Assembly (NCBI GenBank): GCA_013306675.1 | Contig: JABLUY010000001.1 | Coordinates: 337,544 to 401,543, forward strand | DNA length: 64,000 bases | Reading direction: 5' to 3' | From: Thraustochytrium sp. TN22 | Lineage: Eukaryota; Sar; Bigyra; Thraustochytrida; Thraustochytriidae | Part shown: positions 10,936 to 57,844 of the stretch, in pieces | How the letters are laid out: each line of letters begins with the position of its first letter | Position numbering within the stretch: position 1 is the stretch's first letter | The notes under the pieces: generated by a model | Databases searched by the model: none | What the model saw: the letters and a program-made list of their open reading frames with translations, nothing else | Told to the model about the DNA's origin: nothing | Program-made: the position numbers and the translations under genes

Positions 10936-12939
10936 ATGTCAGGGCTCTCCGGCCTGCACTTTGACGCACTGGAGGGCGGGGAAGGCGCAGGGAGCGGGCT
11001 CGGGAGCAGGAATGCGAGCTTCAGGTCGACAGCGGCTGCGAGCGATGAGGGCGGCACCCCCCGCCTCGCGAGGGGGGGCTCGTTTCGCAAGAGCCTGGAC
11101 GTCTCGCAGGCCAGGGAGAGCCGCACGCGGCGGTCGGTGGAGATCCGCAAGCGCAAACGCGGCGAGACCGCGCGCGCGAAGCGGCAGCGGTCCCTTGAGG
11201 CTGCCGAGGGCGCGGCGTCCGCAGGAGGGTACACCGCGGACCAGGTCGTTGCGGCGCTCGACCGTTTACTTGACCCGGCCACGGCGGCCAGCGCGCTCTC
11301 AGACTTGAGGAATTGGCTCTCGTACACGCCCCGCGACGCCTTCGACGGCGCTGAAGAGGATGCGAGCGGCACCGACGGCCACATGAGCAACGACGTGGCC
11401 ATGCAGCTTTGCGCCGAGCGCGGGCTCGCGGAGCGCGTGCTGCCCATTCTGCGCCAGGCCAGGGCCGAGGGTGGCGAGGCGCTCGCTCTGGACGCCGTCT
11501 GGTGCATTACCAATTTGGCCTCGGGCACGTCCTCGCAGACGGCCTCGACGCTGTGCGCCGCGCAGGCACTGGCCGACCTTGTCATCAGCGGGCGCCGCAA
11601 CCTGCAGGAGCAGGCGGCCTGGGCGCTGGGCAACATGGCCGCCGAAGAGCAGCAGGTGCGCGAGGAGCTCGTGGGGCGCGGCCTCTTGACGCCGCTCGTC
11701 GTGCTGCTCCGCGAGCCGGTGGCCGTCTCGGGGCTGCGCGTCAAGCGCACCGCCGCCTGGGCGCTCTGCAACCTGGCTCGTGGCCAGCAATCCTCGGGCA
11801 AGCCCTTCTTCGACGCCGCCGCTCACCTCGCGCTCGTTCAGCTCCTTGAAAGCTATGGCGAGGAGGCGGCTCGCTCGGGCGACCACGCCGAGGCCTCGCT
11901 GCTCATGGTTGAGGTGCTCTGGGCACTCACCTTCTTGAGCGCCAAGGAGCCCAACCTGTGTATTATCCTCGTGCACCAGAACGTGCTTACGCACCTGGTG
12001 CGCATCTTCACGGCCTGCGAGGGCCGCCAAGCGCTCTGTGTGCCGGCGCTGCGCGCGCTTTCGAACCTCGTGCCGCTGCGCGTCGAGACGCCGGCGCGCC
12101 GCGCTTCCCTTTCCTATTCGGTTTGCCAGCAGCCCGGCTTCCTCGACGTGCTGCAGCGCATGCTTAGCGACCACTCGCCGGGCTCGCTCGTGCGGGAGGC
12201 GCTCTGGGCGGTCGCCAATCTGCTCACCCCCGGCAACAACATGGGCCATGTCCAAGGCAACAACAGCTACACCAGCAGCCCGGGCGGCGATGGTGGCTCC
12301 AGCAAGACTTCGGCCAGTGGCGAGGAAGAGGCGCTCACACGCGAGCTCGCCGATCGCTTTAGGCTGCCCATCTGTACCCAACTCGCGCACGGCCCAGAGG
12401 GCGCCAAGATTCCCGCAGCCACGGCGCTGCTGAACCTGGTGCGCCGCGGCGGCGACAGGGCGCTCATCGAAATCGTTGCTACGCCCGTGGACCCTTCGGT
12501 CGTCGCCTCGGCCGTCGCCATGCTGCGCCACGGCGATGTGGAGTTGGTGTGGCGCGGCCTGGATATTGTAGAGCGTGTGCTTGTGCAGCTCAGCAACCCG
12601 TTCGCCGCGGCGCGCCTTGGCGGCAGGTCCGGCACGCAGCTCGTGCTCGAGGAGGACGGCATCGACGCGCTCGAGGCCCTTGAGATGCGCCAGCTGTCCT
12701 CGCCGTACCTGACTGACCTTTGCCAGCGCGCACACTACCTCGTGGACCGCTACTTTGGCGTCAACTTTGAGGACGACCTCGTCGATGAGGGCATCGGCAA
12801 CCCGGAGCGTGGCGCTAACATGTTTCATTTTGGCGTGGCGCCCTCCTCATCCGCCCCTGCGCCCGCAGCGCCGCCCGCGGCGTCCGCAGGCCGCGGTCGA
12901 GGCGCTCACCTGCTGCAGCCGGCGTGGCTTGTCCAGCAG

Positions 12940-12980
<41 letters not shown>

Positions 12981-13077
12981 ACAACAACAAACAGGGGTAC
13001 CACCTGCTACCACTCGGGACAACAAGCAGCGGACCCTGCCGGAGTGCGGCTTCGGTACCCGGATGGATACGAAGTAA
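10936..13077 (+). CDS. Importin subunit alpha with polyglutamine tail
   Basis: The frame encodes 713 residues; family members are usually about 520-550. Residues about 50-90 form the basic importin-beta-binding domain (RTRRSVEIRKRKRGETARAK). ARM repeats follow from about 95 to 590, with the Trp/Asn pairs that grip classical nuclear localisation signals (DAVWCITNLASG, QAAWALGNMA, TAAWALCNLA, EALWAVANLL). A loop insert near 435-460 is Gly/Ser-rich. The extra length is mainly the C-terminal tail: Pro/Ala-rich sequence, 19 consecutive glutamines, and about 28 more residues. It carries cargo with importin beta through the nuclear pore, so the Nup54 homologue at 57.8 kb is a functional partner. The stop overlaps a GTAAGT sequence at 13074, so the last exon might differ. 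Confidence 0.95.
12934..12990 (+). repeat. Polyglutamine CAG/CAA tract
   Basis: Nineteen in-frame glutamine codons mixing CAG and CAA near the 3' end of the importin alpha frame. The mixed codons show that glutamine is tolerated or kept at protein level, rather than a pure slippage product. Confidence 0.95.
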
Positions 13078-13120
13078 GTCCTCACGGTGGGGGAGGAAGC
13101 ATCGTCGATACCCAAGGAGC

Positions 13121-14845
13121 ATGGTCCGGGGCGGCAACGTCGCGCGCGCGCGGGCGCGGGCCTCTGCCGCGGGCCTTGGCCTGCTGCCTGTGCTCGCCGC
13201 CTGCCTCCTCCTCGTTTCTGCGGCTGCCGGCCGTGGCATCGCGGAGATGGCGGTCGGCGGCGAGCGGGAGGTAGCAACGACGCTGCAAGACGAGGCAGCC
13301 TGCGAGGCGCTCGTGGCAGGGCAAGGCCGCGTGTTAGGCGAGTGGTACGAGATGTTCCCAACGTGCGTGTACAAAGGCATCCCGTTCGGGCAAGCGCCGC
13401 GCTTTGCGGCGCCACTGCCCGCTGGCCCGTTCGTGAACGGAACGCTGCGCGCCACGACCTACGGGCCGGGCTGCATGCAGTCCTGCGACCTGCCATTTCC
13501 CTCGCACACGTGCCCGAGCGAGATCTCGGAAGACTGCCTCTCCCTCAACGTGTTCTCGCCCGTGCGATCGCTGCAGAAGAAGCAAGCGCCGCTTCCGGTG
13601 ATTGCGTTTATCCATGGCGGCAACTACATCGTTGGCGCTGGCGGGACGAACATGTACCACGGATCGCGCTGGGCCGCGAACCAGTCCGTGGTGGTGGTGA
13701 CCTTTAATTACCGGCTCGGCGTCCTGGGCGGCCTCTACACGAAGCGCGGCAGCATTCACGGCAACTATCAGTTGCAGGACCAGCGGCTGGCTCTACGGTG
13801 GATCCAGGACAACGTGGGTGCATTTGGCGGCGACCCGGCGCGCGTGGCGGTGGTCGGCCAGAGCGCCGGTGCCTTTTCCGTGGCCGCGCACCTAGCGAGT
13901 CCCAAGAGCTGGCCGTACTTCCAGGCTGCCATCGTCATGTCGGACCCGGTTGCGCTGCCCACGGAGACGACGCGCAAGGCGGAGGAGCTGAGCCACATTT
14001 TCGTGGAGCGCGTTGGCTGCAGACGACGGAGCGAGCAGGCGGAGGAGGCTTGCCTGCGCGCAGTGCCCGCAGAGACCATCATTGCCGAGCAGCGCAAGAC
14101 GGCCTTTCCCACGGAGCCTGGCCAGCTCCTGCACAAGTTTATGCCGTGGACGCCGGTCGTGGACGGCACGGAGCTGCCGCTGTCGCCCTTTGACGCGGCC
14201 GAAAAGGAGCGGCTCGCGCCGGTGCCCATTCTGATCGGCTCGGTTGCGAACGAGTCGCTCATGTTCATCTGGGAGGCCTCGCCGGAGCCCATGACCACGA
14301 CGGCCTACGAGCTGTTCGTCTCGGCAGTCTTCGGGCTGCGTTCGGCGCTTAAAATCTTTCGTCTCTATGGCCCTCCGGACGAGGCGCTCGTCCGCGCTGG
14401 AGACGTGCGGCCCTTCCTCTCCCGCATTGGCACGGACTACATCTTCACCTGCTCGATTCGCGCGTTCGCGCGCCGCGCCGCGCGGACCAACGACGTCTTC
14501 GTTTACCGCTTCGAGCATCTGCCGTCCTTTATTGACTTTTGGAGCCGCAATAGCGGCGACCCGGAGTGCTTCGCCTCGGTGTGCCACGGCATCGATTTGA
14601 ACTTTTTGTTCGGGTCCATCTACCTGCTCACGGGCGATCACCCTGACATGGACGCTCCCGAGCGGGCCATGAGCGCCTTTATACAGTCCGTCTGGGCTCG
14701 CGTGGCGGCTGGCGAGAACGCCTTGGAGCGCTTTCGCGGCGACAACTTTCTAGCCATCGACACGCCGTCTGAGGCCACCTCATATGGCGACTTCCAGACC
14801 AAGGTCTGCGATGTCTTTGACAACATAGGCTACGAGCTCAATTAA
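13121..14845 (+). CDS. Secreted type-B carboxylesterase (alpha/beta hydrolase)
   Basis: The frame encodes 574 residues from the ATG at 13121. An N-terminal signal peptide or anchor is clear: a basic start, then LGLLPVLAACLLLVSAAAG. The carboxylesterase/cholinesterase fold shows in order: SEDCLSLNVFSP, the oxyanion-hole HGGN, FNYRLGVLGG, the nucleophile elbow GQSAGAFS (Gly-x-Ser-x-Gly), and a catalytic-His region VCHGIDLNFLFGS matching the usual HG-[AST]-[DE]-[ILV]-x-[FY]-[LV]-F-G. The catalytic acid probably lies in the VANESLMF segment. It hydrolyses carboxylic esters outside the cell or in the secretory pathway; the substrate is unknown. Only 43 bases separate it from the importin alpha stop on the same strand. 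An AATAAA lies 3 bases after the stop, and it converges with the channel gene 56 bases away. Confidence 0.9.
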   Translation: MVRGGNVARARARASAAGLGLLPVLAACLLLVSAAAGRGIAEMAVGGEREVATTLQDEAACEALVAGQGRVLGEWYEMFPTCVYKGIPFGQAPRFAAPLPAGPFVNGTLRATTYGPGCMQSCDLPFPSHTCPSEISEDCLSLNVFSPVRSLQKKQAPLPVIAFIHGGNYIVGAGGTNMYHGSRWAANQSVVVVTFNYRLGVLGGLYTKRGSIHGNYQLQDQRLALRWIQDNVGAFGGDPARVAVVGQSAGAFSVAAHLASPKSWPYFQAAIVMSDPVALPTETTRKAEELSHIFVERVGCRRRSEQAEEACLRAVPAETIIAEQRKTAFPTEPGQLLHKFMPWTPVVDGTELPLSPFDAAEKERLAPVPILIGSVANESLMFIWEASPEPMTTTAYELFVSAVFGLRSALKIFRLYGPPDEALVRAGDVRPFLSRIGTDYIFTCSIRAFARRAARTNDVFVYRFEHLPSFIDFWSRNSGDPECFASVCHGIDLNFLFGSIYLLTGDHPDMDAPERAMSAFIQSVWARVAAGENALERFRGDNFLAIDTPSEATSYGDFQTKVCDVFDNIGYELN

Positions 14846-14901: not shown

Positions 14902-17900
14902 TCAGTGTCGAAGTATGGACTTGCGCACGAGGGTGGTTCGGCGGTGCGCGGCAGTGAGCATCTTGGCATACTCCTCCGAGGCGAGAAACTGCGGCAGAAT
15001 CTCCTTCTCGAGCGTTCTCAGCGCAGCGATGTAGGCGAGGTGAAAGGCGTCCGCGCTGTGCTCCTCCTCGACGCGCGCGATGACCTCGCGGGCCACGTCG
15101 TCGTCCAGTGCAAGGGCGTCTGGGCTATCGCGGCGGATGAACTTGTCCAGTACGGCCGTGGCGCGCTTCTCGAGGACCTGCGGGTTGTTGGGCGCTTGCT
15201 GCAGGTCGTGAACGGCGCGCACAAACTCGTAAGCTTCCATCATGAAGCGGCGCTTGAGGAAGTCGACGAAGAAGCGAAGGTCCTCCTTGCTCTCCATGAG
15301 CTGGACCACGGACGCATAGCGACCGGCGATGGGTGGGCGCAGGCGCAGCAGCCGCTCGTAGACCAAGCGCTCGCAGATGAGCACCTCGCAGAAGCTGCCC
15401 GTGACGAGGGTGACGGGTGCGAGCTCGCCCCACGCAACGTTGGGGAGCAGGAGGCCTGGGTCGAAGAGGGTCGTGCTATTGTCATCGGTCTGCGAGACGC
15501 GGTCGTGGCGCGCCACGGAGGAGGTCTGCCTCTCCAAAATGAGGCGCGAGGAGCCGAGCTCGCGCACACGATGAACGGGCATAGCGCTTGTGCCAAACGC
15601 GAGGACGCATCCCCGCGCCACGAGAATGAGACGGTGCATGGGCTCTTTGGCTTGAAAGAGCGTCTCGGCGGGTACGATCACCTCGGTGTGCAGATTGCGA
15701 AAAAGTGCGACTAGAAGGCCATCGGAGAAGTCGCGCAGCGGCCTGCAGGAAGCCGGGCTCATGCGCAGCGCCTGCTCCGCGAGGACGTCGCGCGCCGCGC
15801 AGCGCAGCGAGAAGGGCAGCTCGCGAAGGCAGTTCTCGTCCACCATGGGCATGACGTCGATCCGATACTGATGGTACATGCGCACGAGCGCGGTTGTCTG
15901 CTCGGACAAGCGCATATGCGCGACGAGCTGTTGTGCGGCCTCATGGTAGCGGCTTTCAGCCGCGGCGGTGGAGTCTTTGATGTCGATGATGGAGACGAGT
16001 GTTGACGTGATGCCGGCGTCGCAAAAGAAGGAGCCAAGGATCATGACCAGGATGGCGAAGAGGCGCTCCGCCATTCCCCGAACCTCCACGTTGCCAAAGC
16101 CCGCGGTGGTGAGCGTGTAAAAGGTTGCATAGAGCACGTCAACATAGGACAAACGGTCCTCGGGCGCGTCCGTGGGCCGCGTGGACAGAAGGACACGGGT
16201 CCCGGCGCAGGCGAGCCAGTGCGTGAGAAGGAGGACGGCTGCCACAATCTTTGTCAAATGACGATAGCCGGCGCTGATGGATGCGTTGGATGCAGCGTCC
16301 AAGGCGTTGTCAAAGACCGTCCAGATGCGCGGTACATGGCGAATCCACAACAGGCGCAACAGGCGAAGATCGAAGACAGCCTCCGGCGAGGCACCGGCGC
16401 CTAGCGCGACCAGGTCGAAAGGGAGTGTCGCGAGAATGTCGAGCACACCCTCCATGGACCGCAAGTAGGCGCGGCGAATGTCCTTGGGTTCTGTGTACTG
16501 AATGCCGCGTTGCACGCGCGAGACGAAGAGGGTCTTCCACACGATGGCGGTCCATGCGCCAACGTCGAGGACCGCGTCGACGAGGTGGGCGGGCAGCGGG
16601 TCTTCGCGCAGGCCGCTGTCGGGCGTAGCTGAGCGTGCCGCCCAGAACGGCACGATGAGGCCATAGGCGAGCACGAGCGCGAAGAGCAGGCCATGAAAAA
16701 CAACGTAGCCAACGTGCGAGGGCAGCAAGACGTAGTTGTTGAGATCGAAGCGCGAGCGGCGGCGCGAAGTCTCGCGTTCCTCGTCGGCCTGAAACATCTT
16801 GGTGAGCTTGCGCTTGTCGAGGTTCTTCTTGGTGTGCTCGAGGTCGCTGGGCTTGGCAATGAAGGACTTGAGCTCCTGGGAGAACACCGCGAAGAGCTGC
16901 GGGTTGTCGAGCAGCGCGCGCAGGAGGTCGTCTCGCGTGAGAACGGCGACCTCGCAAGTCGTCTTGCAGCGCGCCGAGGCGGCGTAGCCAAGCGTGTTGG
17001 TCCGGAAGAAACCGTCGACGCCGGCTGCGCCACCCTTCTCCAGCTGGTAAAAGACTTTGGTCAGATCCGCCGAGACGATCTCCACGGTGCCGCTGATGAT
17101 GATGAAGAGGTAAGAGCTCTCCTGACCGGCGTGGTAGAGCAGGGTGTCACGGCGGTAGCGGTCGAAGCGCAGCGTGTCGGCAAGGAAGCGCCAGAGGCCG
17201 GATGGCCCGATGACTGGCAGCCTGCGCATGGTTTGCTCGCCCACGAGCTCGAGCGCAACTTGCGCTCGCAGCGAGTGGCTGAGAAAGCCGAGGATGTCGT
17301 CATCGTTGACGCCCTTTTGGTGCTTCCAGCAGCGGAAGGCAAAGGCGCGCAGGGAGGCGCGTAGAGCCACCGGGAGCTCGCGCAGGGTCGCGTAGGCGGA
17401 TATAAGGTCCGATTTCTTCTGGTAAAGGATGGAGGTGATGTCGGACTGGGCCACAATGTCCTCCAGGAAGGCGATGATGACCGAGTAGAGCAAGCCGCCA
17501 ATGACGAGCACGCCGACCGTGTAGATGATCTCGCTTTGCGAGATGGGCACCACATCGCCGTAGCCGACGGCCGTAATGGCGGCCACGGCAAAGTAGAGCG
17601 CCGCCACGTAATGGTGAACCCAGGTACTGTGGGCGTCAAGAACCACGAGGGTGGAGACAGGGCCTGAGGCGTCGACGCCAATGAGATTGGCGTGATTGGC
17701 GTCGACCCAGGACGACTCGCCGTTGCGGACCGAGCGGAGCGCGATGAGGTAGAATAGGCAGCCTGCCCAGTGCGCGATGAGCAAGAAGACGAAGACGAGC
17801 TTGGCGATGGTGGTGAAGCTGCGCTGTGCCTGGTTTTTCACGTGTCCGCCGAGCGACGCCAGGTGGTCCAGAATGCGCAAGCCGCGCAGAAGCTTGTTGA

Positions 17901-20900
17901 AGCGCAGCAAGGGACCCGTCGCTCCCACAGCGAGTGTAGCGATGAGGTCGATGGGCAGCGCGCTTACCACGTCGCCAATGCCAAAGAGCGAGCGCAAATA
18001 GGCGCCGCGAAACTCGGCCGGTTGGTCAAGGCGCTGGCCATCTGAGGTCTGGAACTCGAAGAATCGAACGCGCAGAAGAACGTCGACCATGAGCAGCACG
18101 TCGCAGCAGGCATCCACAGCCACAGCCAGCGGCGGCGATTGCGCGAAGCGCCAGCTAAAGGCGAGACGAATAGGGAAGAGGACGTACTCCCACATAAGGA
18201 CGAGAAACATGAGGAGCTTCCACGCGGTCTGAGTGCGCGACTCGAGTTTGAAGACGCGCGGGCCCTTGCCCTGCGCAACGACGGACTCCTCATCGCCAGC
18301 CATTTTGGCGAGCTTACCGCCGCGACGCAGATTCATGGCGATGGTCTCGCGCTGGTCGGCCGTGGCGAGGTCGCGCTCGGCTGCTGCGACAAGCGCGTCG
18401 TCGCGCTCGAAAAGCGCACCGAGATGGTGTATAACACGGCCCTGAAGCACCCACATCTCGCAGGCGGTGGTGGCGATCCACCGCGACTTGTCCACAGCCG
18501 ACGTCGGGCTGCGAGAGGAGATTTGCGCCTCTCCGCGCGCGGAGAGGCGGCCTCCATGCTCCTCAAGGACGATGCGGTTGGCCATGCTCTTGTGGGCAAA
18601 GACGCGCTCGCCAAATGGCTGTCCCTCTGCGATGCTGCGCAGCTTGATGTCGTTGGCGCCGCGCACCTCGACGTCTCCCTGCACGAGGAAAAAGAGCGCC
18701 CACTCGCTGTCGGTTTCGGCGATGATGATCTCGCCGGGCATGGCGACGCGGAAGTCAAGCAGGGCGCAAGCCTCCCGAACGAAGGCGTCGGACGCCGCGG
18801 CAAGCAGCTTGGACGTGCGCAGGAGGCCGCCAGCGAGGTCATAGACGAGCTGCTGGCGCTCGTCGGCGCATAGGTAGTCAGACTCATGCGAGCGCGGGCA
18901 GAGTAAGGTGTCGCGATACAGGCGCAGGTTAGGCAGGCGTGACCAGGAGGTCTGGGCGTGGTGCTCGCGCTCCTCGATTTGCTGGTCCCGCAGACGGACC
19001 AGGGAGTCCGAGGAGCTGGCCCGCACGAGGGCGTCGTTCCCCTCCTCTGGCATCGGCTTTGAGGTGAAAAGCGCCGGGTGCTGCTTGATGCGCGAGAAGG
19101 GCTTGGCAAAACGAGTCGTGCGGAGATCAACCGGGGTGCCCAGCACGCGGCGGAAGGTGATGAGGTCCCGCGCTTCGACGTGCTGCAAGTAGGCAAAGAT
19201 GCGAGATTGCAGGTGTGCCGAAATCTTGCGATCGAGCATAAAGGCAGTGAGACAGGTCCGGTGGTGCGCGATATTATGCTCGGAGAGCTCGACGTCCTTG
19301 AGCAGCGTGCCAATGAATGACACGAGGCAAGAGTAGGCGGCGATGCCGATGATGGCCAGGAGGGTTGTGATGAGCGAGGCACGCGCCGAGCTGGGCGAGA
19401 TGTCGCCGAAGCCAGTCGTCGTGATGGTGGTGAGCGACCAGTAGAAGCCGACGGAGTAGAGCTTGAGACCACTGTGCGCATGCTCTGCGGCCAGCGCTGG
19501 GTACGTGACGACGATTGTCATGCCATAGCAGGCAATGATGTGGGCCCAGAGGCAAAAGTAGACGCCGAGGCGCGCGGAGAGCGAGTTGCTGCCGATGTCG
19601 CTGGCGAGCTCGTCGGGGGCGTCCGAGGGCGGGCCCGCAGCTGCACCGCGGGAGGGTGCGGCAGTGTCGGCGCGGCGATTCGCGTGGTGGTCCGCGTGCA
19701 CAGCCTGGGCGAGGCGCCTGCGTTGCCGCCAGGCATGGAAGTGGACATGGACGCGATCGACGAGGCCGCCCAGATTGTAGAGTCGCAGGAGGAATGGAAG
19801 ACGCAGGATCGCAAGGGAGCGGTCCAGGTCGGTGCGCTCCGCCTCGCCGTGGCCGCCGAAGACGAGGCTAGCCTCGAGGGCGATGCTGGCCACGGAGCAG
19901 GCCGCGAGCAACGTCTCGAAGATCGAACGCGATATGCGCATGAGAACCCCCCAGCGCCGAGCCAAGGCGGCGCGGCGCGTGGCGAGGTATTCCTGCTGAG
20001 TGGCCCACATGCCCACGGCGAGGTTGACGGAGGAAGCCACGGAACGGCGACGGTCAGTGGAACTGCTCGTGCGCCTGAAGAGACCTCGGGGGGGGGCCGG
20101 CGCCTGTGCGCGGAGACGTGCTACCGCGGCGCGAGGACCTACTCACGCTGCTGCTCGCACGGAGGCTGGGACGCTGCTGTTGCAACTGCCTAAGAACAAG
20201 CTCCTGACCCTGCTGCGCCGAGGGGTCGTGCTGCGAGGCTTTGGCGTCGCTCTCATCAAGTAAGAGCGGGCGCACGATATAATAGGCGAACATGAAGGCG
20301 TCGACGAGGGTGATGAACAGGAGCGTCGAGAGGCTCGCAGCACTGAGCTGGAGGCCAGCAATGACGAGACCGAGGTTGAACGGAACGAAGACGCTGTAAT
20401 AGCCGAGGAGGAAACCAGTCGCGAGGCAGTCCCAAATCACCTCGGCGGCTGACTGTGGCTTGAAGCGGAAACGCTTGAGTCTGCGTCGCCAGCCGCTGAG
20501 ATCGGCGTCGGGAGGTCTCTTCTCTGCCTGCAGCACGAGTGCGGCAATCTTGGCTCCTTTTCTCTTGTTGGCTGCGACCTGAGACTGGCGCGCGTTGGAG
20601 GATTTGCGTATGGCGAGTGCGGGCACTGGACCTTGCTGGTTGCTGGTCCCGATGTCTTGTCCGTCGGCAGAATCTGCAGCCAGTCTTTCGCGTCTATCGT
20701 CGTCGTCGTCGTCGTTGTCTTCGTCGTCATCCAGGTCCGGAGCGAGGGAAGAGTATGCACATTCGGCATCGAGCTGATCGCAGACGCGCTCATCAAGGTC
20801 TAGATCGGCCAGCGGCGTGGCTGCATGTTGCACATGCAGCCTGGCGGATGCTGCATCGCCGTCGCTGGTCTTGGAGTCGGCATGCCTGCCGCCGTGGATA

Positions 20901-22714
20901 GCGCACATGACGGCTTCAGAGGTGGCGAGCATGTCCCACTCTGGGAAGGTGAGCGCGAGGCGGCGGAAGTCGACGTAGCTGAGGTGGATGACCTCGCAAC
21001 GCGTGAGCGCCGTGTAGCGTGGCGCCTGGCAGTGCAAAACGTCAAAAAAGCTGAGCGCACCGAGCGAGCTACCGGGCGCGAGCACGTCGGGGAAATGGCT
21101 CTGCACCTCGGCTTTGAGCTCGTTGGAGGGCTCCGCGTGGACGCCGCGAGGGGACTCGAGGTCTGCAAAGCCCCATAGCATCTCGGAGGAGGCCGTGAAG
21201 CTGCGGTCGATGGCGCGGCGGGAGCTTCCTTGCCGCAAGGATTCCATGCGGCGGTGGTTGGTAGCAGTGGTGGCGTTCGTGGTGTTCGTGGTGGTGGCGG
21301 GCTGGTCGTTCGCGGGCGCGTCGTGGTCCCGGTCGGCCTTGTCGGTGCTGTTTCGCGAGCGGAAGCGGCCAAAGGCGATGGAGCGCAGCGAGCGCGAGCT
21401 GGCGCCAAAGAAGCCGTGTTGCTTCGTCGTCTCTGCGCGGCGCGGTTTCGTGTTGCTGCGCTTGGACGCGGTGCCATTAAGAAGGAAGCAAAGCACGCCG
21501 GGGCGAAATGGCAGGGTGGTCCACGGATCGCGCAGCGTGCGGCCTGGCTCGAAGATCGAAGGTTCCATGAGGTCGACGAGCGCGAGCACGACCTGTCTGC
21601 AAGGTTCCTTGGAGCCCGGCATTCGGAAGAGTGGCACGTTCATGAGATGGGTGGCTCGCTCGACGAGCACCTCTCGCACAAGCGTGGGCGGGAGCGCGTC
21701 GAAGATCTTGGTGCGCGAGAGGCCGCGGGAGCGAGTCCAGAGGCGCTGCAGAGAGCGGACAACGATGCGCTTCGTGGCATTTGGAAACCTTCTCTCCCTG
21801 AGGACGAGGTCGACGCTCTCGATCGTGCCTCTGTGCGCGCTGGGCGTGGAATCGAGATTGATGAGGTAGGATGTGAGGTTGGCGATCATGTAGGCCATGA
21901 CGAAGACACCGGCAAGGCACAGGGCGGACCCGAAGAGTCGCTCGGCTGCGGTCGCCGGTGCGACATCGCCGTAGCCGACAGTAAGCAGGGTCTGCCAGAT
22001 GAAGTGCATGGAGCGTGCGAAACGCAGGGCAGCCGGCGAGGCCGGGTCTTCGAGGTTGCGCGTGGAGTTGGCGTTGCGCAAGCCATCATGATCGATCCAC
22101 GATAGCCCAGGCTGGCCGAGCTCGCCGAGCCAATAGTAGAGCGCGGATCCGAGCCCCTGCACGACAATGACGACGGCCGCAAAGCCGGCGAGGCGCATGA
22201 GCTGCTGCGGTGGGTTGGGAAAGACGCGCTTGACGACACTAAGAAAGGCGGGCACGTAGGCCTGGACCACCCTTTTCACGTGCAGCAGCTTGGCAAGCGA
22301 AAGGACGCTCGTTGCGAGCGAGACGCCGGAGGTGGCGTAGGCGACGAGCCCGAGTGGCAGGACCGCGAGGAGTGCGGCAGGTTTCCGGATGACGTTGCGG
22401 AAGAGGTTTGGTGGACTGCCATTGGCCTGCAGCCACGCGTCTCCGGCGAAGAGCACGGAGACGACCGAGTCAAGGCCGACCGCGACCAGCACTGCCACGT
22501 TCGAGCTCTCGGGGTGAAATTTGAGGAGAAGTGGCGAGGTGGACCCGATTACGAGGTAGCCGGCGAGGCAGGCGCAAGCCAGCGGCACGGTGCCAGGCCA
22601 CTCCGCGGTGTGGTTTTCTGCCTTATTGACGAACTCCTTGTCTCCGGGTGCCGCGTCTCCGGGGGCCGGGGCGACCGCCCGCGCCCCGCCGGAAGGTCGT
22701 AGCCAGCGGCGCAT
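14902..22714 (-). CDS. Four-repeat CNG/KCNH-type potassium channel on one chain
   Basis: Two adjacent open frames (22714-20147 and 19995-14902) join across a proposed 151-bp phase-0 intron into about 2,553 residues. The join is supported because repeat 2 is split: its S1-S2 helices are at the end of exon 1 and its S3-S6 at the start of exon 2. Each of four repeats has six membrane helices, an Arg/Lys-bearing S4, a P-loop filter and a C-linker/cyclic-nucleotide-binding-like domain. Filters are GYGD (about residue 247), GFGD (about 1051), GYGD (about 1666) and GFGN (about 2155). Binding-domain remnants include FGER (repeat 2) and YLFIIISGTVEI (repeat 3). Sea-urchin and fish sperm CNGK channels share this four-in-one plan. 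A plasma or ciliary membrane K+ pathway is inferred. In all four binding domains I could not find the phosphate-contacting Arg, so ligand gating is doubtful. The start at 22714 follows an Ala/Gln-coding repeat and could be extended. Confidence 0.8.
19996..20146 (-). other. Proposed 151-bp intron of the four-repeat channel
   Basis: On the minus strand the donor is AGC|GTGAGT at 20146 and the acceptor CACTCAG ends at 19996. Removing 151 bases joins a phase-0 serine codon to a phase-0 glutamine codon and shifts exactly from the frame of the first open frame to that of the second. A CTGAC branch-point-like motif lies near 20053-20057. A second CAG directly after the acceptor (NAGNAG) would drop one glutamine. 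Other AG sites I tried (20085, 20075, 20063) fail the frame test. Confidence 0.75.
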
Positions 22715-25646
22715 TCTGCCGGATACGGCGGCTGCGGCGGCTGCAGCTGCGGCGGCTGCAGCGGCTGCAGCGGCAGTAGCTGCAGCGGCTCGGCCGCGAG
22801 CTTTGAAGACTGCCTGCTGACTCTTGCCCTGTGTTGCTGTTTCGACTCCCCTCCAGCGCTGGCCACCTTGCCTTCGCCGCCCAGGTCAGGGTCGTAACGT
22901 TAGTTCCATCGGGCTTACAAAGGCACCATTGCTCCATCGCGCCAGCATGTACACCAGCTGCTTCGTTGCGGGCCAACGGCCCTTTAGGCGCTGCGTCTCT
23001 TGTCGCGCCTGGTGCCGGGTTTCGGATGCGGAGATGTTGTGGCCTACATTGGTTGGTACCACCTCCTCTTGGCAGTGGTCACAGATAGAGAGGTCTTCCT
23101 TCTCCTTGGTGCGCTGCGCAGCGCTGCGCGACAGAGCACAGGGCGGAGCAGTGCGGCGCTCGATCGGCGGCTGGCACAGCTTGCCGTGGAGGAGGAGAGA
23201 ACGCACGAAGCACCCTTGAGCCGCGAGACGATGGGTGTCGTGCAGTGGGGCCGTTAGGCTGCGCAACGCATATGGATAAAAGGCGTTGCGCAGATCGACC
23301 CGAGCGATGCACGTGCGCTTCTCGGTGCGCAGCGCGAGGCGCTGCCCGGCCTGCGCATGGCAACTGGCCCGCTGTGCTGCGCTGCAGCCAGCCAGCAACG
23401 AGCTTCGCAAGCGGGTGGGCACCGAGGCTCTGCTCACTCGGACAGGCTCGACTCGCGACTCGCGCAGCAATCGTCCAAAGCAGTCTTGGGGAAATGCGCT
23501 TGCCCACAGCTCCCAGGAGTGCTTCGCGAGGTGACTAGTGCTTCGCGAGGTGACTCTTTGGCTGCTGCTGCTGCTGGCGTGCGTAACGCAGAAGAAACAC
23601 GAGGATCCTGATCGTGGACACCAGGTTGTAAGGACTCGGACTGGGCTTTTACTGCCGTAAGGCACGGTGGTTGGCGCGGCCCGGGGGCGGTCATGGTCCG
23701 AGTCGGTCAGGCAGATTGGCGCGCTCCTTAAGGTCGCAGAGCAGGCATTCCCGGACAAGGTCCTCCGCTTCCCCTGGTGTTTCCGAGGCATAGAGAGAAG
23801 AGAAGAGACGCTCCGGTGCTCCGCGGCTCATGATGCAGCCGTGGCGGCTGGAGGCACAATCGCTCCGATTCGCTCGTGTCGCGAGCGCTTCACGGCAAGT
23901 ACGTCGCTCTTGATCTAGCAGGTAACACGCCGGCCGCACAGCACGAGCAGCGTGCAGCACAGGACGCAGCTCCGGCAGAGGGAGTCTCAGACAAAAGGAA
24001 AGCGTCGGCCTAGTGGGCCGGTTGATCGACAACGCTTCGAAAATTGGCGCTGGATAACCATGCGACTTTTGGATGTTGGCGAAGCATGAGATGGGCGCGA
24101 GCACTCCAACCGAAGCGGACGCCGCGATGCGAGATGCGACGCTCAGCACGCGCTCGTCCAACATGGCCCCTGCAAGCTCCAGCCTACTCCTACCCCACGA
24201 TGTGTGCCTGCCGCCAAAGGCACGCCGCAACCAACCTTGCGGGCTGCAGCGGCCGCCGCAGGAACACCATCAGCAGATGCTACTGGCTGCAGATGTTGCA
24301 GTGCTTCTTGTCGGAGCGCTGCACCGGCCCCGAGGTCAGCCTCGATGCACGTGAACGCTCCAGCGCAATTCTTGTCTGGGGGCGGTTGATCCAGCTACCG
24401 CAGTCACTCGGCAACTGGGGCCATCGTCCACCAAATCCCCGCACTGCGGTATAGGGCGTGGAGGGGCTAGCCAAATACTTGCCTCCAGCCCTGCACACCG
24501 TACCACCGCACGTTGGGCCAGGGGTGAGCGAGCGCGCGATCTCGCCGGCCACCGCCGACGCCTTGCCGGCCGCCGCGGGGCCGCGTGCGAGACGCGGCAG
24601 CGCCAGAGCAAGGACGGGCGGGCGGGCTGGCGCGCGCGCGGGCGGGCGGGCTGCCTGGCGAGCAAGCGAGCGAGCGAGCGAGCGCAGAGCGGGCGCGCCC
24701 TGCCGGTGCCGGGCCGACGCCGCTGGACAAGGCAACGCGAGGGTGGCTGGCGTGCTGAGGACGAGCGAGCGAGCAAGCTCGCATCAGGGCTCAAGTCGTG
24801 GCACCTTGGCAAGGCCTTCGACGCGCCTCAGCGGCTGAAGCATACCCCAAACTCCCTGGGCAGCGCCGCGGTGGTGCGAGGCGCGAGATCGCGAAGCACG
24901 CCAGCCGCCACGCGAGCGCGAGCCGAGCCAGGAAGGCGTGGCAAAGTCGCATCGCCCACGAGCGGGGCGAGCGCATCATCCCCTTGGCAGCCTGAGCTAG
25001 CAGCTGCGCGCAGGCGAGAGCACGAAGCGGGCGAGCGAGCGGGCCAGCGAGCGGGCGAGCGGGCGGGCGAGCGAGCGGGCGAGCGAGCGAGACGAGCGCG
25101 GCAGGCTTGGCGGCCTTGATCGCGAAAAGTCGGCGGCGAGCGGCGCCGCGCGGCCCGCCCGGTTGATCGAACGGGTCCGAGGTGCTGCGGAGGTCCCCGC
25201 CAACGGCGGGCGGGGACGCACGTGTGCGGCGGGGAGTGCCCTGGGCTCGAGCTCAGGGCAGGCGCGGTCAGGCTTCCGCAGCGTACGCGCGCAGGAGCCG
25301 CCTTGCGATCGCGGTCGCGCGAGAGAGAATCGGGGCGCGAGATCGCCAACCGGCGCGGCGCGGGTCGGCGCGGGTCGGCGCGGCGCGGCGCGGCGCGGCG
25401 CGGCTGGCGCGGGCTCAGCGGCAGCTCTTGTTGCGGGGCGCCGCGAGGTGTTGCAGCAGCAGCCTCAGCGGCCAGCAGGCGCCACAGCGGGAGGCTGCCG
25501 GGCGGCGAGGCGCAACACAACTGTTGGGTCCTGGGAACGCTCGCGCAGGGGCCGGAGAAGGAAAGCGGCGAGGCTGAGCCCGAGCGCGAGGGAGACTGGC
25601 GAGTGAGACTCTGGCTTGGCGAGCGAGGCGGAGGCGCGAGCAACAG

Positions 25647-52965: not shown

Positions 52966-55719
52966 TCAGCGCCGCGACTTCTTCTTACCACGGCCCGTCA
53001 CCTTCCTGACAATCGCTTTGATTCTGCGCCATGGCGTGCTCTTCTTCTTCTTGGGCGGCGGCGGCAGCTCCGCGCTGCGTTGCTCAGGCTGCGTCTCCTT
53101 GGTCGCTCGCTGATGTTGCTGCTCCTGCTCCTGCACCTCGAGCAGCGCCTGCTCACGCTCCTCAATGCCCTGCTTCTCCTCATCCTCGGTGCTCTTGTTG
53201 TCGTCGTCGTCGTTGTCGTCTTGATCATGATGGGTGAGCCCCCCCTCAGGCACCGCCGGCGCCGCGGGTGCGTCGCGCAAGGCCTCGCGGTACGGGCGCG
53301 AGCGGTTCATGAGCTGCGTGAGACGCGCAAAGTGCGGCAAGCCACGCAGAATGCGGCGTGCTTTGCGGCCGACCGTGGCGGCGGCCGCGGCGGCCGCGAC
53401 CGCGGTGGCGTCAGCCGCCGTGGGCCGGGGCGGCCTCCGGTTGTTGCTGCTCTTCTTGCTGCCGTCACCGCTGTCAGCGCTGCCGCTGCTCGCCTTGGCC
53501 TTGGCTTCTGCTTCGAGCCGCGCAATCTGCTCCTGGGCCGCCGCGAGGTCCTGGCGCGCCATGGAGAGGTCGGCACGCAGCTTGGCCTTGGCGGCCTGAG
53601 ACTCGACGAGGTCGCTGCGCGTGGCGTCAAGATCAGCCCGAACCTCGTCCAGATCCGCCTCGAGGACGATGCGCGCCTGCTCCGAATCCTTGAGCTGCTC
53701 CTCGACGCGGCACATCATCTCAACGTGGCGGCGCTTAGCGGCCACCTGCTCGAGCAGCTGCATCTCCATGTTTTCGTTGGCCTCCTCGAGCGAGCGGAGC
53801 TGCGCGCTCGTCTCGGTGTGCGCCGCAAGGCGCTCGCGCAGGAGGTCAATCTCCGTGCGCAGCTCCGCAATGATCTCCGTGTTTGAGTCCCGGTTCACGA
53901 CCGCCTTGTTGACCACGCGCGCGCACTCCTGCGCGTAGCGCAGCGTCGTGAGGCTCTCCTCGAAGTTGACCGTGGCGGGACTCACGGTGGCGAACATGGT
54001 GGTGCGCGAGTTGCCGCCCAGACTCGGCTTGAGCAGCCACGTCAGCGTCGAGTCGCGGTAAGGAATGAGCGGCTCCCGCGCCGGGCTCTGCGGCGAGCCC
54101 ACCGGCGTAGACCCGGGTGTGTAGTAGCCGACGGGCCGCTTGCGCGCCGTCGGCGGCTTGGAGAGTGCGTTGATCACACGGCCCAGCGTGTGCAGCGACC
54201 GGTTGATGTTGGCCGCCTCCGTCAGCTGCTTGCCCTGGACGCCACTCGCCGTCACGCGCTCCGAACCGGCCAGGTCCACCAGGTTGATCTTGGAAATCGT
54301 GTCCATGGCGCTCGACAGATCGCCAGCAATCGTCGTCTGCTTGAAGACCAGTGTGAAGATGGCGTGGCTGCGGCTCGACTTGCTGTTCATGTTCGTCGCC
54401 GCCACGGTGCGCGCACGCGCGCCCACCGCCATCATGCGCCGGATCTCCGCCATGCTGCGCACCGGCACGGTCGTGAGCGCCTCCACATAAGGGCCCATCT
54501 TGGGGTCCTCGCGCACGCGCAACTTCGGCGACGGCTCCTTGTCGTCGGGCGGCGCGGCCAGCAGGTCGATGCACCGCTCGTTGTAAATCTCCAGGTACGA
54601 AGCCTCCAGCGAGTACGTGGTCGACTCCGTCCCGTTGGCCAGGCACGAGACGTCCGGGTCGCCGCGCACGTCCGTCTCACCCAGCTTCTCCACCAGCCGG
54701 CTGCAGATACGAGGGATCAAGCCGGCGTCCGGGCTCGAAGCGCGCCCGGCGCCCAGCATCGTGTGCGTCTTGCCGGATCCGGTCTGTCCGTACGCGAACA
54801 CGCTGGCGTTGTACCCAGCAAAGGCATTCTCCAGCACCCCCGTGCCGATGTCCTCAAAGATCTGCTCCTGCTCCGTGTCCGTGCCGTACACGTAGTCGAA
54901 GCTGAAGGAGCGCGTCACCGCCTTGTGCCGCCCGGGGTACCCCGGCGTCCCGGTGGGCGTCAGGCACGTGCCTTCCGGGTCTGCTGTGATGGTCAGCTCG
55001 TCCTCATGCACCTTGACGCACGACACCGCACCGAGCTCGCGCTCGCGTTCATTCAGAGGCCGGCACCGCACCGCCACCTTGATCGAGTTCGCCTTGGCGC
55101 GCATGCTCGGAGTCTTGCTCGCGTTCGTGCGTACGCTGTACGAGTCCGACTCGCGCGGCGCTTTCACCGGGGTCGAAAATGGGTCGCTACGCGGCCCACT
55201 GTTGGCATCCTGCGCCTTGTTCTCCTCGTCCACCTCAGACTCGTCGGACTCCTCCTGCTCCTCCTCATCGTCATCGTCATCGTCGTCTTCCATCACGGTG
55301 GCCGGCGACCCAGGCACGGCGAGATGCTCTGCAAAGGTCTTTTGCACGAGCCGCGGAATGTTCTGTTGCTGCTGAAGCGGGTGCGGCTTGCGCTGCTGCA
55401 GCACGCTGTGGTGCTGCTGGGATGAGGACAGCACTGGCGATGACTGCCGCCGCGGCGACTCCTGCCGCCGCGGCGACTCTTGCTGCCGCGGAGACTCCTG
55501 CTGCCGCGGCGACTGCCGCACCTCCTGCAGCGGCGTTGAGAACGAGTCGTCCGAGTCGCCGTCCTCGTCCGAGCCATCCTCCATCACGTGCGGCTCATTC
55601 TCGTCCGCGTAGTCGTACTCGGACGACTCCGCCGACAGGCTATGCTGCTGGCGGCCGGCCGCAAGCTCCACCTCCTCGTTGGCATAGGCCACGTCGGGCC
55701 CCGCCATCGCCACGTCCAT
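52966..55719 (-). CDS. Kinesin-3-like motor protein
   Basis: The frame encodes 917 residues from the ATG at 55719; the frame upstream starts only at TTG. Residues 1-200 are acidic and Ser/Gln-rich with an SPRQQE-type repeat. The kinesin motor follows (about 215-600): IKVAVRCRPLNERE, P-loop GQTGSGKTHTM, switch I NMNSKSSRSH, switch II DLAGSE and the microtubule-binding region YRDSTLTWLLKPSLGGNSRT. The neck VVNKAVVNRDSNTEIIAELR resembles kinesin-3 (usual VNEDPNA...IRELR). An insert with GYYTPGSTPVGSPQ sits in the loop before YRDST. Coiled coil runs about 610-730, then a basic and acidic tail ending in a KKKK/RGKKKSRR cluster. It is a plus-end-directed microtubule motor by family inference. No FHA or PH domain is seen, so the kinesin-3 assignment is tentative. 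Confidence 0.9.
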   Translation of the reverse strand: MDVAMAGPDVAYANEEVELAAGRQQHSLSAESSEYDYADENEPHVMEDGSDEDGDSDDSFSTPLQEVRQSPRQQESPRQQESPRRQESPRRQSSPVLSSSQQHHSVLQQRKPHPLQQQQNIPRLVQKTFAEHLAVPGSPATVMEDDDDDDDEEEQEESDESEVDEENKAQDANSGPRSDPFSTPVKAPRESDSYSVRTNASKTPSMRAKANSIKVAVRCRPLNERERELGAVSCVKVHEDELTITADPEGTCLTPTGTPGYPGRHKAVTRSFSFDYVYGTDTEQEQIFEDIGTGVLENAFAGYNASVFAYGQTGSGKTHTMLGAGRASSPDAGLIPRICSRLVEKLGETDVRGDPDVSCLANGTESTTYSLEASYLEIYNERCIDLLAAPPDDKEPSPKLRVREDPKMGPYVEALTTVPVRSMAEIRRMMAVGARARTVAATNMNSKSSRSHAIFTLVFKQTTIAGDLSSAMDTISKINLVDLAGSERVTASGVQGKQLTEAANINRSLHTLGRVINALSKPPTARKRPVGYYTPGSTPVGSPQSPAREPLIPYRDSTLTWLLKPSLGGNSRTTMFATVSPATVNFEESLTTLRYAQECARVVNKAVVNRDSNTEIIAELRTEIDLLRERLAAHTETSAQLRSLEEANENMEMQLLEQVAAKRRHVEMMCRVEEQLKDSEQARIVLEADLDEVRADLDATRSDLVESQAAKAKLRADLSMARQDLAAAQEQIARLEAEAKAKASSGSADSGDGSKKSSNNRRPPRPTAADATAVAAAAAAATVGRKARRILRGLPHFARLTQLMNRSRPYREALRDAPAAPAVPEGGLTHHDQDDNDDDDNKSTEDEEKQGIEEREQALLEVQEQEQQHQRATKETQPEQRSAELPPPPKKKKSTPWRRIKAIVRKVTGRGKKKSRR

Positions 55720-57844
55720 CGCGAGCTCGAGCGCGATCGACCCCGCCGGCAAGCGAGCGAGCGAGCGAGCGAGCGAGCGAGCAAGTCTGCCGCTTGCTGC
55801 CTTGCCCTCGCCCCTCGCGAGTCTGCTCCACGCACGGGGTAGCCCGGCTCTGCGGTTTCCTCAATGTGCTCGGCTTTAACAACACTCACTAGCGAGCCAG
55901 CGGAGCCAGCGAGCTAGCTTCGCGTTCGAGCGCGAGCGCGAGCGCAACGCTGCACTGCTCTGCGCTGCTCGACAGTGCCGCTGCGCCGCACCCGCGACCC
56001 CGCCGCGCTCTCGCAGCCGGGCAGGCCTCGCCAGCCAAGCCGACACGAGCTTGCCGCGACGCGTCCCTCTTGGTCGGGCCGGTGCCCGCGCGATGCGCCC
56101 TGGCGCCGCGATGGCGCCCCGGCTCGCCGACCCCATCGCTTCGACGTTTCATGCGCGCGGTCCCGAGCCCGGCCTGGAGCGCGTGTGGGACCTCGGAAAC
56201 GGTCCCCGCGCCCCCCCTTGCTTCGCACACTCCCGCGGTTCTTGCTCTCTCCATCGAGTCCATCCAGTCTCCAAGGAAAGCCCAGAGGGCGCCAGCGGGC
56301 GGCGGCGACCCGGAGCGAGTCATCTTGGAGCGAGGCATCTTCAAGCTGGAGCAAGGCATGCGAAGCGGCGATGCCGCATGTCTCGTCAGGAGCCCGCTTT
56401 TTGTTACAGGGTCACTCGGGTCGAGATATACGATCGACGCGGGACGCGTAGACCATGAGACCGGGTATGCCTGGACGCAACAAGCTGTGCTCTTCGGTTT
56501 GTCTTGATCAGAGGGCAGCATTTGAACGGCGGTAGGTCTGTAAAAAAAAAAGAAAAACAAAACGCTTGCGCGGGAGGAATGAATGAGCTCGTCTCTGGGA
56601 CGTACGATCAGCGCTGGACAAGCAATTCCTTGGCAAGCGGAGCTCATGATGCTGCCGACGTGCAAGCAGAGGGATCGAGAGCCCAGGCCAGGCATCCCGA
56701 CTCGGATGGACGCACTTTTGTTCCCAAGAAAGGGATGGAGAGCCCAGCACAGGCATCCCGACTCGGACGGAAGCACTTTAATCCCAAAGAAAGCCTCGCT
56801 CTTCGTCCGCAGAGGCGGCTGAGAGGAGGGAAAGGGCAAGAAAGAGTTGAACGGGCATACATGTGCTCCGCGGCAACTCCTGCTCTTCCATGCGGCACAT
56901 CGTGGAACCTTTGATATCTCGTTGCGGACGTCTGCGCCGCAGAATTTGCCGTTCCTGCTCCGCCCATGCTGATCGTATTTCAAGGCGAAAGCAGCATGTG
57001 CATAACCTCCTCGCAAACGAGCTACACGGCCAGCATCTTGACCATAAGCTCGACGTTCGAATCGTCTTTCATGAACTTGCCATGCAAATAGCGACTTTGT
57101 CAGCCCAAGCATCTCTCGACACCGCGCGTATGTGCATGTTCGATGCGGACGAAGCCGCACGGGCTCATGATGCGGCCGACACAGAAGCGGAGGAAGACGA
57201 ATGGCTGGCCCAGTTGACCGAAGGCAGAGACAGGGCCAAGCCCGGGATCCTTCGTCACCGCGGTCTGCAAGATCGAAGCTTTAGTCGAGCTTTGTTTTTC
57301 CTGAGCGGGCGCAAGAGAACTCTCGTCCTTGCGTCGCTGTAGTAGATGCGCGGGCGAGTTCGGATCTTGAAGCATCCCTGCGAACACGTCTGCAAGTCTG
57401 AAAGCACCGCATCGTGTAGAAGCCGCCGAGCCGACTGGCCAGGGAGAGCCGCATGACAACCGCAATCATATGCGAATGCCAACCTGCGTCACAGCGCATC
57501 CACCGGGCTCTCTCTCGCGTACATTCGCAGATTGGCAGCGGCGCCTCCTGTCGTGCCACGATCTGTGTGATCCTGGCCACGAGGTCGACAACGTGGACGG
57601 CCAGGACGGCCTAGTAGTCCTTCGGCCCGGTTTGGCTTGACTTGACTTGGCTTCGCGCCGCGCTGCGCCGCGCCGCGCCGCGCGGTGGTTGCGGCAGGTA
57701 AACACGAGCGACGCGCGGGCGCGGGGGCGCAGCGCGCGCGGCGCGGCGCGGCGCGGCGCAGCGCGCGACACGCTCGCTCGCTCCGGCGGCGGCGAAGGCG
57801 CGGCGGCTCGCGGCCACGGGCTAGCGGCCGCTAACCGCGGCGCC
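55720..57844. other. 2.1-kb intergenic region
   Basis: It holds a GCGA run (55751-55783) before the kinesin start, an A-rich tract (56539-56555), an imperfect tandem duplication of about 58 bp near 56688-56800 (shared core ggcatcccgactcgga), and GCCGC runs (57655-57760). Two open frames (minus 55889-57160, plus 56890-57342) were considered and not accepted. Confidence 0.45.

Follow-up and report, generated by a model that had tools for sequence, protein, structure and literature searches.

A probable four-repeat CNBD-type K+ channel gene with a C-terminal RGS domain, most likely split by an assembly error, in a putative thraustochytrid genome

Two adjoining open frames on the minus strand of a 64-kb stretch of genomic DNA (the window) most likely represent a single gene, which would encode a four-repeat K+ channel of the cyclic-nucleotide-binding-domain (CNBD) type, KCNH/CNG-like and ending in an RGS domain. 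The gene appears to have been cut into two frames by an assembly error, and to this reading as a whole we give a probability of about 0.73. As the original prediction had it, the upstream frame (943 aa) contains one pore and the downstream frame (1746 aa) contains three (Table 1), and the end that it gave to the gene, 22714, is indeed where the upstream frame has its first ATG. The two frames overlap by 89 bp (20142-20054) in different phases and, apart from this junction, the ~8 kb that they cover is open. The junction divides repeat 2, with S1-S2 at the end of the upstream frame and S3-S6 at the start of the downstream one; this split had been predicted, and both the alignment and the coordinates bear it out.

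Pfam assigns three Ion_trans, two cNMP_binding and one RGS match to the downstream frame and a single Ion_trans stretch to the upstream one, and in each frame the whole-protein score of every family present exceeds its curated cut-off. In an alignment of 22 repeats, where the four of the window stand with 18 others from CNBD channels of the same genome, all four window repeats cover S1-S6 and the C-linker. Their filters (TVGYGD, TTGFGD, AVGYGD and TAGFGN in repeats 1-4) are of the K+ type. The frames have the hallmarks of CNBD channels: six-helix repeats with a voltage sensor, a pore and a TVGY/FG-like filter, followed after S6 by a C-linker and a CNBD, which is clear in repeats 2 and 3, weak in repeat 1 and not significant in repeat 4. 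Among solved structures, KCNH1 is closest to repeat 3 and SthK-type channels are closest to repeat 1 (best match 8vtb, 6e-17; SthK-named entries from 1.4e-16). Unlike the window gene, KCNH (EAG/hERG) and SthK channels have one repeat per chain and are not known to carry an RGS domain. The 24-helix covalent plan is shared with the four-domain Nav/Cav channels, which, however, are not known to have GYG/GFG filters or CNBDs and have an acidic selectivity ring, whereas all four window filters read GYG or GFG. These data support a predicted chain of four six-transmembrane CNBD-type repeats with K+-type filters, and the four complete six-helix repeats with four P-loops claimed earlier for one chain largely hold up, on the evidence of the filters, of Pfam and of three intact paralogues. 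Elsewhere in the genome, four frames (C87, C205, C432 and C375; loci L002, L003 and L004) each have four Ion_trans matches and resemble four-domain Nav/Cav channels; when C87 and C205 were read with the K+-filter pattern, GYG/GFG was not found in them.

The genome (37.9 Mb in 453 contigs, with at least 90 Ion_trans matches) holds three paralogues, each with an unbroken frame that contains four CNBD-type repeats: C417 (2604 aa), C401 (2468 aa) and C445 (2823 aa). Four repeats on a single chain are seen directly in these three proteins, and in the window gene through the join of its frames. Because the three paralogues are intact, the four-repeat plan, as read from the sequence, exists in this genome independently of how the window is read at 20.1 kb. 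Among the repeats of other proteins, the best match of each window repeat is the same-numbered repeat of C445 (4 of 4), reciprocally so for repeats 1, 3 and 4; for repeat 2 the match leads by 56.6 vs 56.2 bits and is non-reciprocal. In the repeat tree, the window and C445 pair firmly at repeat 3 (97/97) and repeat 4 (96/98). Since the order of the repeats across the two frames is that of the intact, colinear C445, the frames very probably form one gene. As assembled the frames are separate, and the downstream one has an ATG at 20010, from which one might suppose that they are distinct genes, or that the gene is really disrupted in this strain, the products being truncated proteins that carry 1.3 and 2.7 repeats. 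We regard this as very improbable: the cut between S2 and S3 would leave neither half with a complete repeat 2, C445 has the same order of repeats unbroken, and the remainder of the frames is open.

The repeat tree is weakly resolved (12 of its 19 inner branches are open), and C242 and C29 (without a K+ filter by pattern) and C67, C158, C162 and C273 (not fetched whole) were left out of it. Besides the four-repeat genes, the genome encodes a CNBD channel with two repeats in tandem (1714 aa; L012, C310:138500-146000; filters AVGYGD and TVGYGD), whose repeats group with the single-repeat channels C112 and C227 (97/98). It shares with the window gene tandem CNBD-type repeats with K+ filters, but has two of them per chain instead of four. 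C401 (L010) and C445 (L021) are further four-repeat CNBD channels with unbroken frames; in C417 (L009), three of the four filters fit the K+-type pattern, repeat 3 having VVVIGD and repeat 1 TVGLGD. A scan of viral_contigs with the downstream frame found no relative.

The frame change between the two halves is most likely a one-base indel in a C9 homopolymer. This run lies within the frame overlap and is the only C/G run of nine or longer in the window; just two occur, the window C9 included, in 316 kb of sequence from loci of which some overlap. Among the sense frames, codon preference switches at the run. A codon table was made from 31 loci, some of which overlap, by taking the longest frame in each. 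With it, the best-scoring sense frame is the upstream one over the 16 codons before the run (-6.6, the others being -15.2 and -17.3), and the downstream one over the 30 codons after it (+1.6, against -15.9 and -16.3, with antisense frames at -9.3 or lower). A second table, from four channel genes, gave the upstream frame -3.3 vs -14.2 and -13.6 before the run, and the downstream frame +4.6 vs -13.4 and -13.2 after it. For comparison, true coding windows of like composition, which overlap one another and the training genes of the four-gene table, had a mean of -1.4 and a 5th percentile of -10.9 over 16 codons (264 windows, four-gene table), and of 2.0 and -13.2 over 30 codons (892 windows, with the true frame best in 81%). 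Judged by these scores, both sides of the run look like ordinary serine-/arginine-rich linker, the second side more firmly.

The original prediction had instead read the two frames as exons on either side of a 151-bp spliceosomal intron, which would give the same four-repeat chain, ~50 residues shorter in the S2-S3 linker of repeat 2. The GTGAGT...CTCAG boundaries, the length and phase 0 were all found as described, and a search of the join for an in-frame stop found none, the chain from the ATG running to 2553 residues (about 2,550 had been claimed). The stretch also holds CACTGACC, which resembles a branch site and has a counterpart in the L055 intron, and introns do occur in channel genes here (in two of seven loci with a short or split match, L049-L055). 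Scored in a single frame over its full length, the stretch has a non-coding look (-15.0 to -33.8; two genuine introns scored -8.5 to -38.7 in sense frames), which is expected under either model. One argument against an intron is its form. Four genuine introns with junctions placed by eye (C72 myosin, C431 kinesin, and the channels C158 and C396) start with GTACGT (two) or GTAGGT (two) and never with GTGAGT; they contain CTAAC or CTGAC, and end in CACACAG (three) or GCGCAG (one). The proposed intron contains CTGAC and ends in GTGGGCATGTGGGCCACTCAG; a pyrimidine-rich tail is present in three of the four genuine introns, the one in C431 being without it like the candidate. Its GC content is 70%, vs 52% and 60% in two genuine introns. 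In addition, 10 of the 12 kinesin genes with a clipped N terminus that were examined keep the first motif in frame, with an intron in one and one ambiguous case. A C9 run inside the 89-bp overlap would have to be a coincidence, and on each side of it the best sense frame is the one that an indel predicts. Since the run sits in the overlap and codon preference switches there, an indel fits better than an intron, at odds that we estimate as about 4 to 1, and the intron itself we consider unlikely.

Several observations weigh against the reading of one gene interrupted by an indel and encoding such a channel. The best match of C445 repeat 2 is C112, window repeat 2 being outside its top four, and the tree pairs of repeats 1 (67/66) and 2 (72/43) are weak and flagged as long-branch joins. 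In quick leave-one-out trees with both members kept (two trees each), SH-aLRT was 66 and 89 for the repeat 1 pair and 86 and 72 for the repeat 2 pair, and removal of one member of either pair sent the other elsewhere. Ahead of the C run, the score of the upstream frame is low (-6.6 over 16 codons), and two antisense frames exceed it (1.0 and -0.0); this half of the codon test is weak, because the true frame is the best of three in just 44% of 264 16-codon windows rich in S/R/T/P/G/A. A search of the genome's DNA for another copy of the junction, or another allele, returned the window itself as the sole match, and the frame-joining indel is a deduction from the sequence. The GC content of the window (61-73% in 2-kb steps) is higher than the 43-57% of those thraustochytrid genomes with a GC figure in the sources consulted, which speaks against the assignment of the host. 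To these points we add the degenerate CNBDs of repeats 1 and 4, which are barely detectable by the local model, and the replacement of two Asn residues in the RGS domain, both considered below.

The local CNBD hidden Markov model (HMM) was built from five CNBDs of this genome and used to search 22 sequences; it matched repeats 2 and 3 clearly and repeat 1 weakly, while repeat 4 fell below inclusion (Table 1). Inspected by eye, the CNBD of repeat 2 retains FGE and an Arg ahead of the last strand, with an insert interrupting it, whereas in repeat 3 VD replaces GE and the Arg is absent. Gating of the channel by cyclic nucleotides is thus doubtful and, if present, would most likely act via repeat 2. 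Single-site gating has a precedent, since the sea-urchin CNGK channel is gated by one cGMP at its third CNBD, according to PMC4749565.

The C-terminal RGS domain, which the original prediction missed along with the weakness of CNBDs 1 and 4, matches Pfam RGS and, among solved structures, RGS18 (Table 1). It lies with repeat 4 in one unbroken frame, so the fusion is independent of how the junction is read. Among the at least 45 genomic RGS matches listed, only the one in the window shares a frame with a listed Ion_trans match; both lists are lower bounds, and intron-split genes would be missed. A search of C417, C401, C445 and C310 for RGS gave no match. The Asn residues that RGS18 has at EEN and VNLD, which we take to be the G-alpha contacts (positions as in RGS4), are both Ala in the window domain. 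The contacts expected of a GTPase-activating protein (GAP) are thus missing, which makes docking likelier than GAP activity, and the latter doubtful. In the open-licence literature, the matches listed include no paper on an RGS-channel fusion, which does not show absence from print. RGS domains of the genome also occur in other settings: at least four frames carry both CNBD and RGS families (L022 in C453, with three CNBD stretches and one RGS in frame, and also C38, C409 and C233), and the RGS proteins of L023, L024 and L025 have, by eye, several hydrophobic helices ahead of the RGS, like seven-helix RGS proteins.

The genome contains a PfaA-like omega-3 polyunsaturated fatty acid (PUFA)-synthase frame (L060 in C124; 3044 aa, 2540 bits), and beside it a divergent 2083-aa frame (C124:38227-41142) whose match to the PfaA model is partial and below its cut-off, an arrangement that we take to be that of thraustochytrid PUFA synthases. 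With the PfaA model, 11 of 14 control genomes had a match and none of the 14 exceeded the cut-off. These PUFA-synthase-like genes, the sole evidence on the point, suggest that the host is a thraustochytrid stramenopile, in line with the stramenopile origin that had been thought probable. Myosins and kinesins are present in the genome, and one kinesin motor protein is encoded within the window itself, in a single 964-aa frame (52966-55860, minus strand). The neighbour of the channel gene is a convergent carboxylesterase frame (12713-14845, plus strand), 56 bp separating the two frames. An Rfam search of the window at gathering thresholds gave no match.

Table 1. Features of the candidate channel gene (window coordinates)
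Feature	Position	Strand	Evidence
Upstream open frame: repeat 1 and repeat 2 S1-S2; first ATG 22714-22712	20054..22885	-	ORF list, Pfam
Repeat 1 S1-S6; filter TVGYGD at 21965-21982	21851..22600	-	Pfam Ion_trans, Ion_trans_2; PDB; alignment
Repeat 1 C-linker and degenerate CNBD with long insert	20921..21850	-	Local HMM E 0.0067 (weak); phmmer match of repeat 1 extends here
Repeat 2 S1 and S2 (upstream frame)	20246..20434	-	Alignment, coordinates
C9 homopolymer within the frame overlap; likeliest site of frame change (assembly indel)	20088..20096	-	Run count, codon scores
Proposed 151-bp GTGAGT...CTCAG intron, alternative to indel	19996..20146	-	Sequence reading
Downstream open frame: repeat 2 S3-S6, repeats 3 and 4, RGS domain, stop	14902..20142	-	ORF list, Pfam
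Repeat 2 S3-S6; filter TTGFGD at 19402-19419	19297..19938	-	Pfam, alignment
Repeat 2 CNBD; FGE motif retained, insert ahead of distal part	18400..18834	-	Local HMM 9.6e-10
Repeat 3 S1-S6; filter AVGYGD at 17554-17571	17440..18234	-	Pfam; PDB KCNH1 4.9e-37
Repeat 3 CNBD; phosphate-cassette Glu and Arg absent (by eye)	16900..17214	-	Pfam cNMP_binding; genome scan 1.1e-11; local HMM 1.9e-9
Repeat 4 S1-S6; filter TAGFGN at 16090-16107	15985..16719	-	Pfam, alignment
Repeat 4 CNBD-like region, strongly degenerate	15340..15744	-	Local HMM E 0.092, below inclusion
C-terminal RGS domain	14950..15309	-	Pfam RGS 3.1e-13; PDB RGS18 2.5e-10; genome scan

The nearest known design is that of CNGK. Three papers describe it: four repeats, GYG/GFG filters and CNBDs make up the plan (PMC4749565); the repeats are nearly identical and their linkers short and equal (PMC6259924); and repeats 1 and 3, and 2 and 4, are closest to each other (PMC7576140). 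The last of these, a 2020 survey that included a labyrinthulomycete, reports the four-repeat form of CNBD channel from metazoans and choanoflagellates and a two-repeat tandem form from oomycetes and dinoflagellates, and gives the CNBD-channel group a short S4-S5 linker of under ten residues. Like CNGK of the sea urchin (ApCNGK), zebrafish (DrCNGK) and a choanoflagellate (SrCNGK), the window gene would have four six-helix repeats per chain, K+-type GYG/GFG filters and CNBD regions following the repeats, two of these four regions being clear, one weak and one not significant. It differs in its probable stramenopile host, in repeats that are far apart in sequence (22-30% identity to the closest row of the trimmed alignment, vs the near-identical repeats of CNGK), in long, unequal linkers, in the degenerate CNBDs 1 and 4, and in the RGS domain. 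Pairing of repeats 1 with 3 and 2 with 4 was not seen in the repeat tree, which is weakly resolved. CNGK is gated through cGMP at CNBD 3 in the sea urchin and through pH in the zebrafish; repeat 3 of the window gene lacks, by eye, both the Glu and the Arg of the cassette. The matching plan would be explained if the gene were a true CNGK orthologue, shared with animals and choanoflagellates by descent or transfer and not assembled separately, but given these differences we think this quite improbable. By its predicted chain the window gene is built like animal CNGK but is not filed as CNGK; the plan is of a known kind, and what is new is the host group, the divergence of the repeats and the RGS tail. 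In open-licence literature on CNGK, mostly available as titles and the starts of abstracts, no title concerned stramenopiles, which does not show absence from print.

We observed four repeats, K+-type filters, an RGS domain and a colinear intact paralogue, the order across the window being read through the join; what the original prediction observed is partly confirmed, and its interpretation partly supported. The assembly would have broken one coding sequence into the two frames, the likeliest cause being a one-base error in the C9 run. This sequence would specify one polypeptide, some 2,550-2,610 residues long, that has four six-helix repeats and the RGS domain at its C terminus. We infer that this chain folds as a pseudotetramer around a single pore; its assembly and its K+ selectivity are predictions from the sequence. 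The CNBDs would serve as gating rings, of which at most one, in repeat 2, seems able to bind cyclic nucleotide, and the RGS tail would dock the channel to heterotrimeric G-protein signalling. Opening of the channel would hyperpolarise the cell.

If one genome, probably of a thraustochytrid, holds four genes of this kind, three of which are unbroken, then the plan either long predates the animals or has more than one origin. We would give even odds to the proposal that thraustochytrids, whose zoospores are flagellated, evolved four-repeat CNBD K+ channels of their own, a family apart from animal CNGK. This family would have at least four genes here, one of them with an RGS tail, so that a G protein on the receptor side could have a direct effect on a K+ channel that is a covalent pseudotetramer and at most weakly gated by cyclic nucleotides. 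Through the RGS fusion, a connection of G-protein signalling with membrane potential may become testable in this group of protists.

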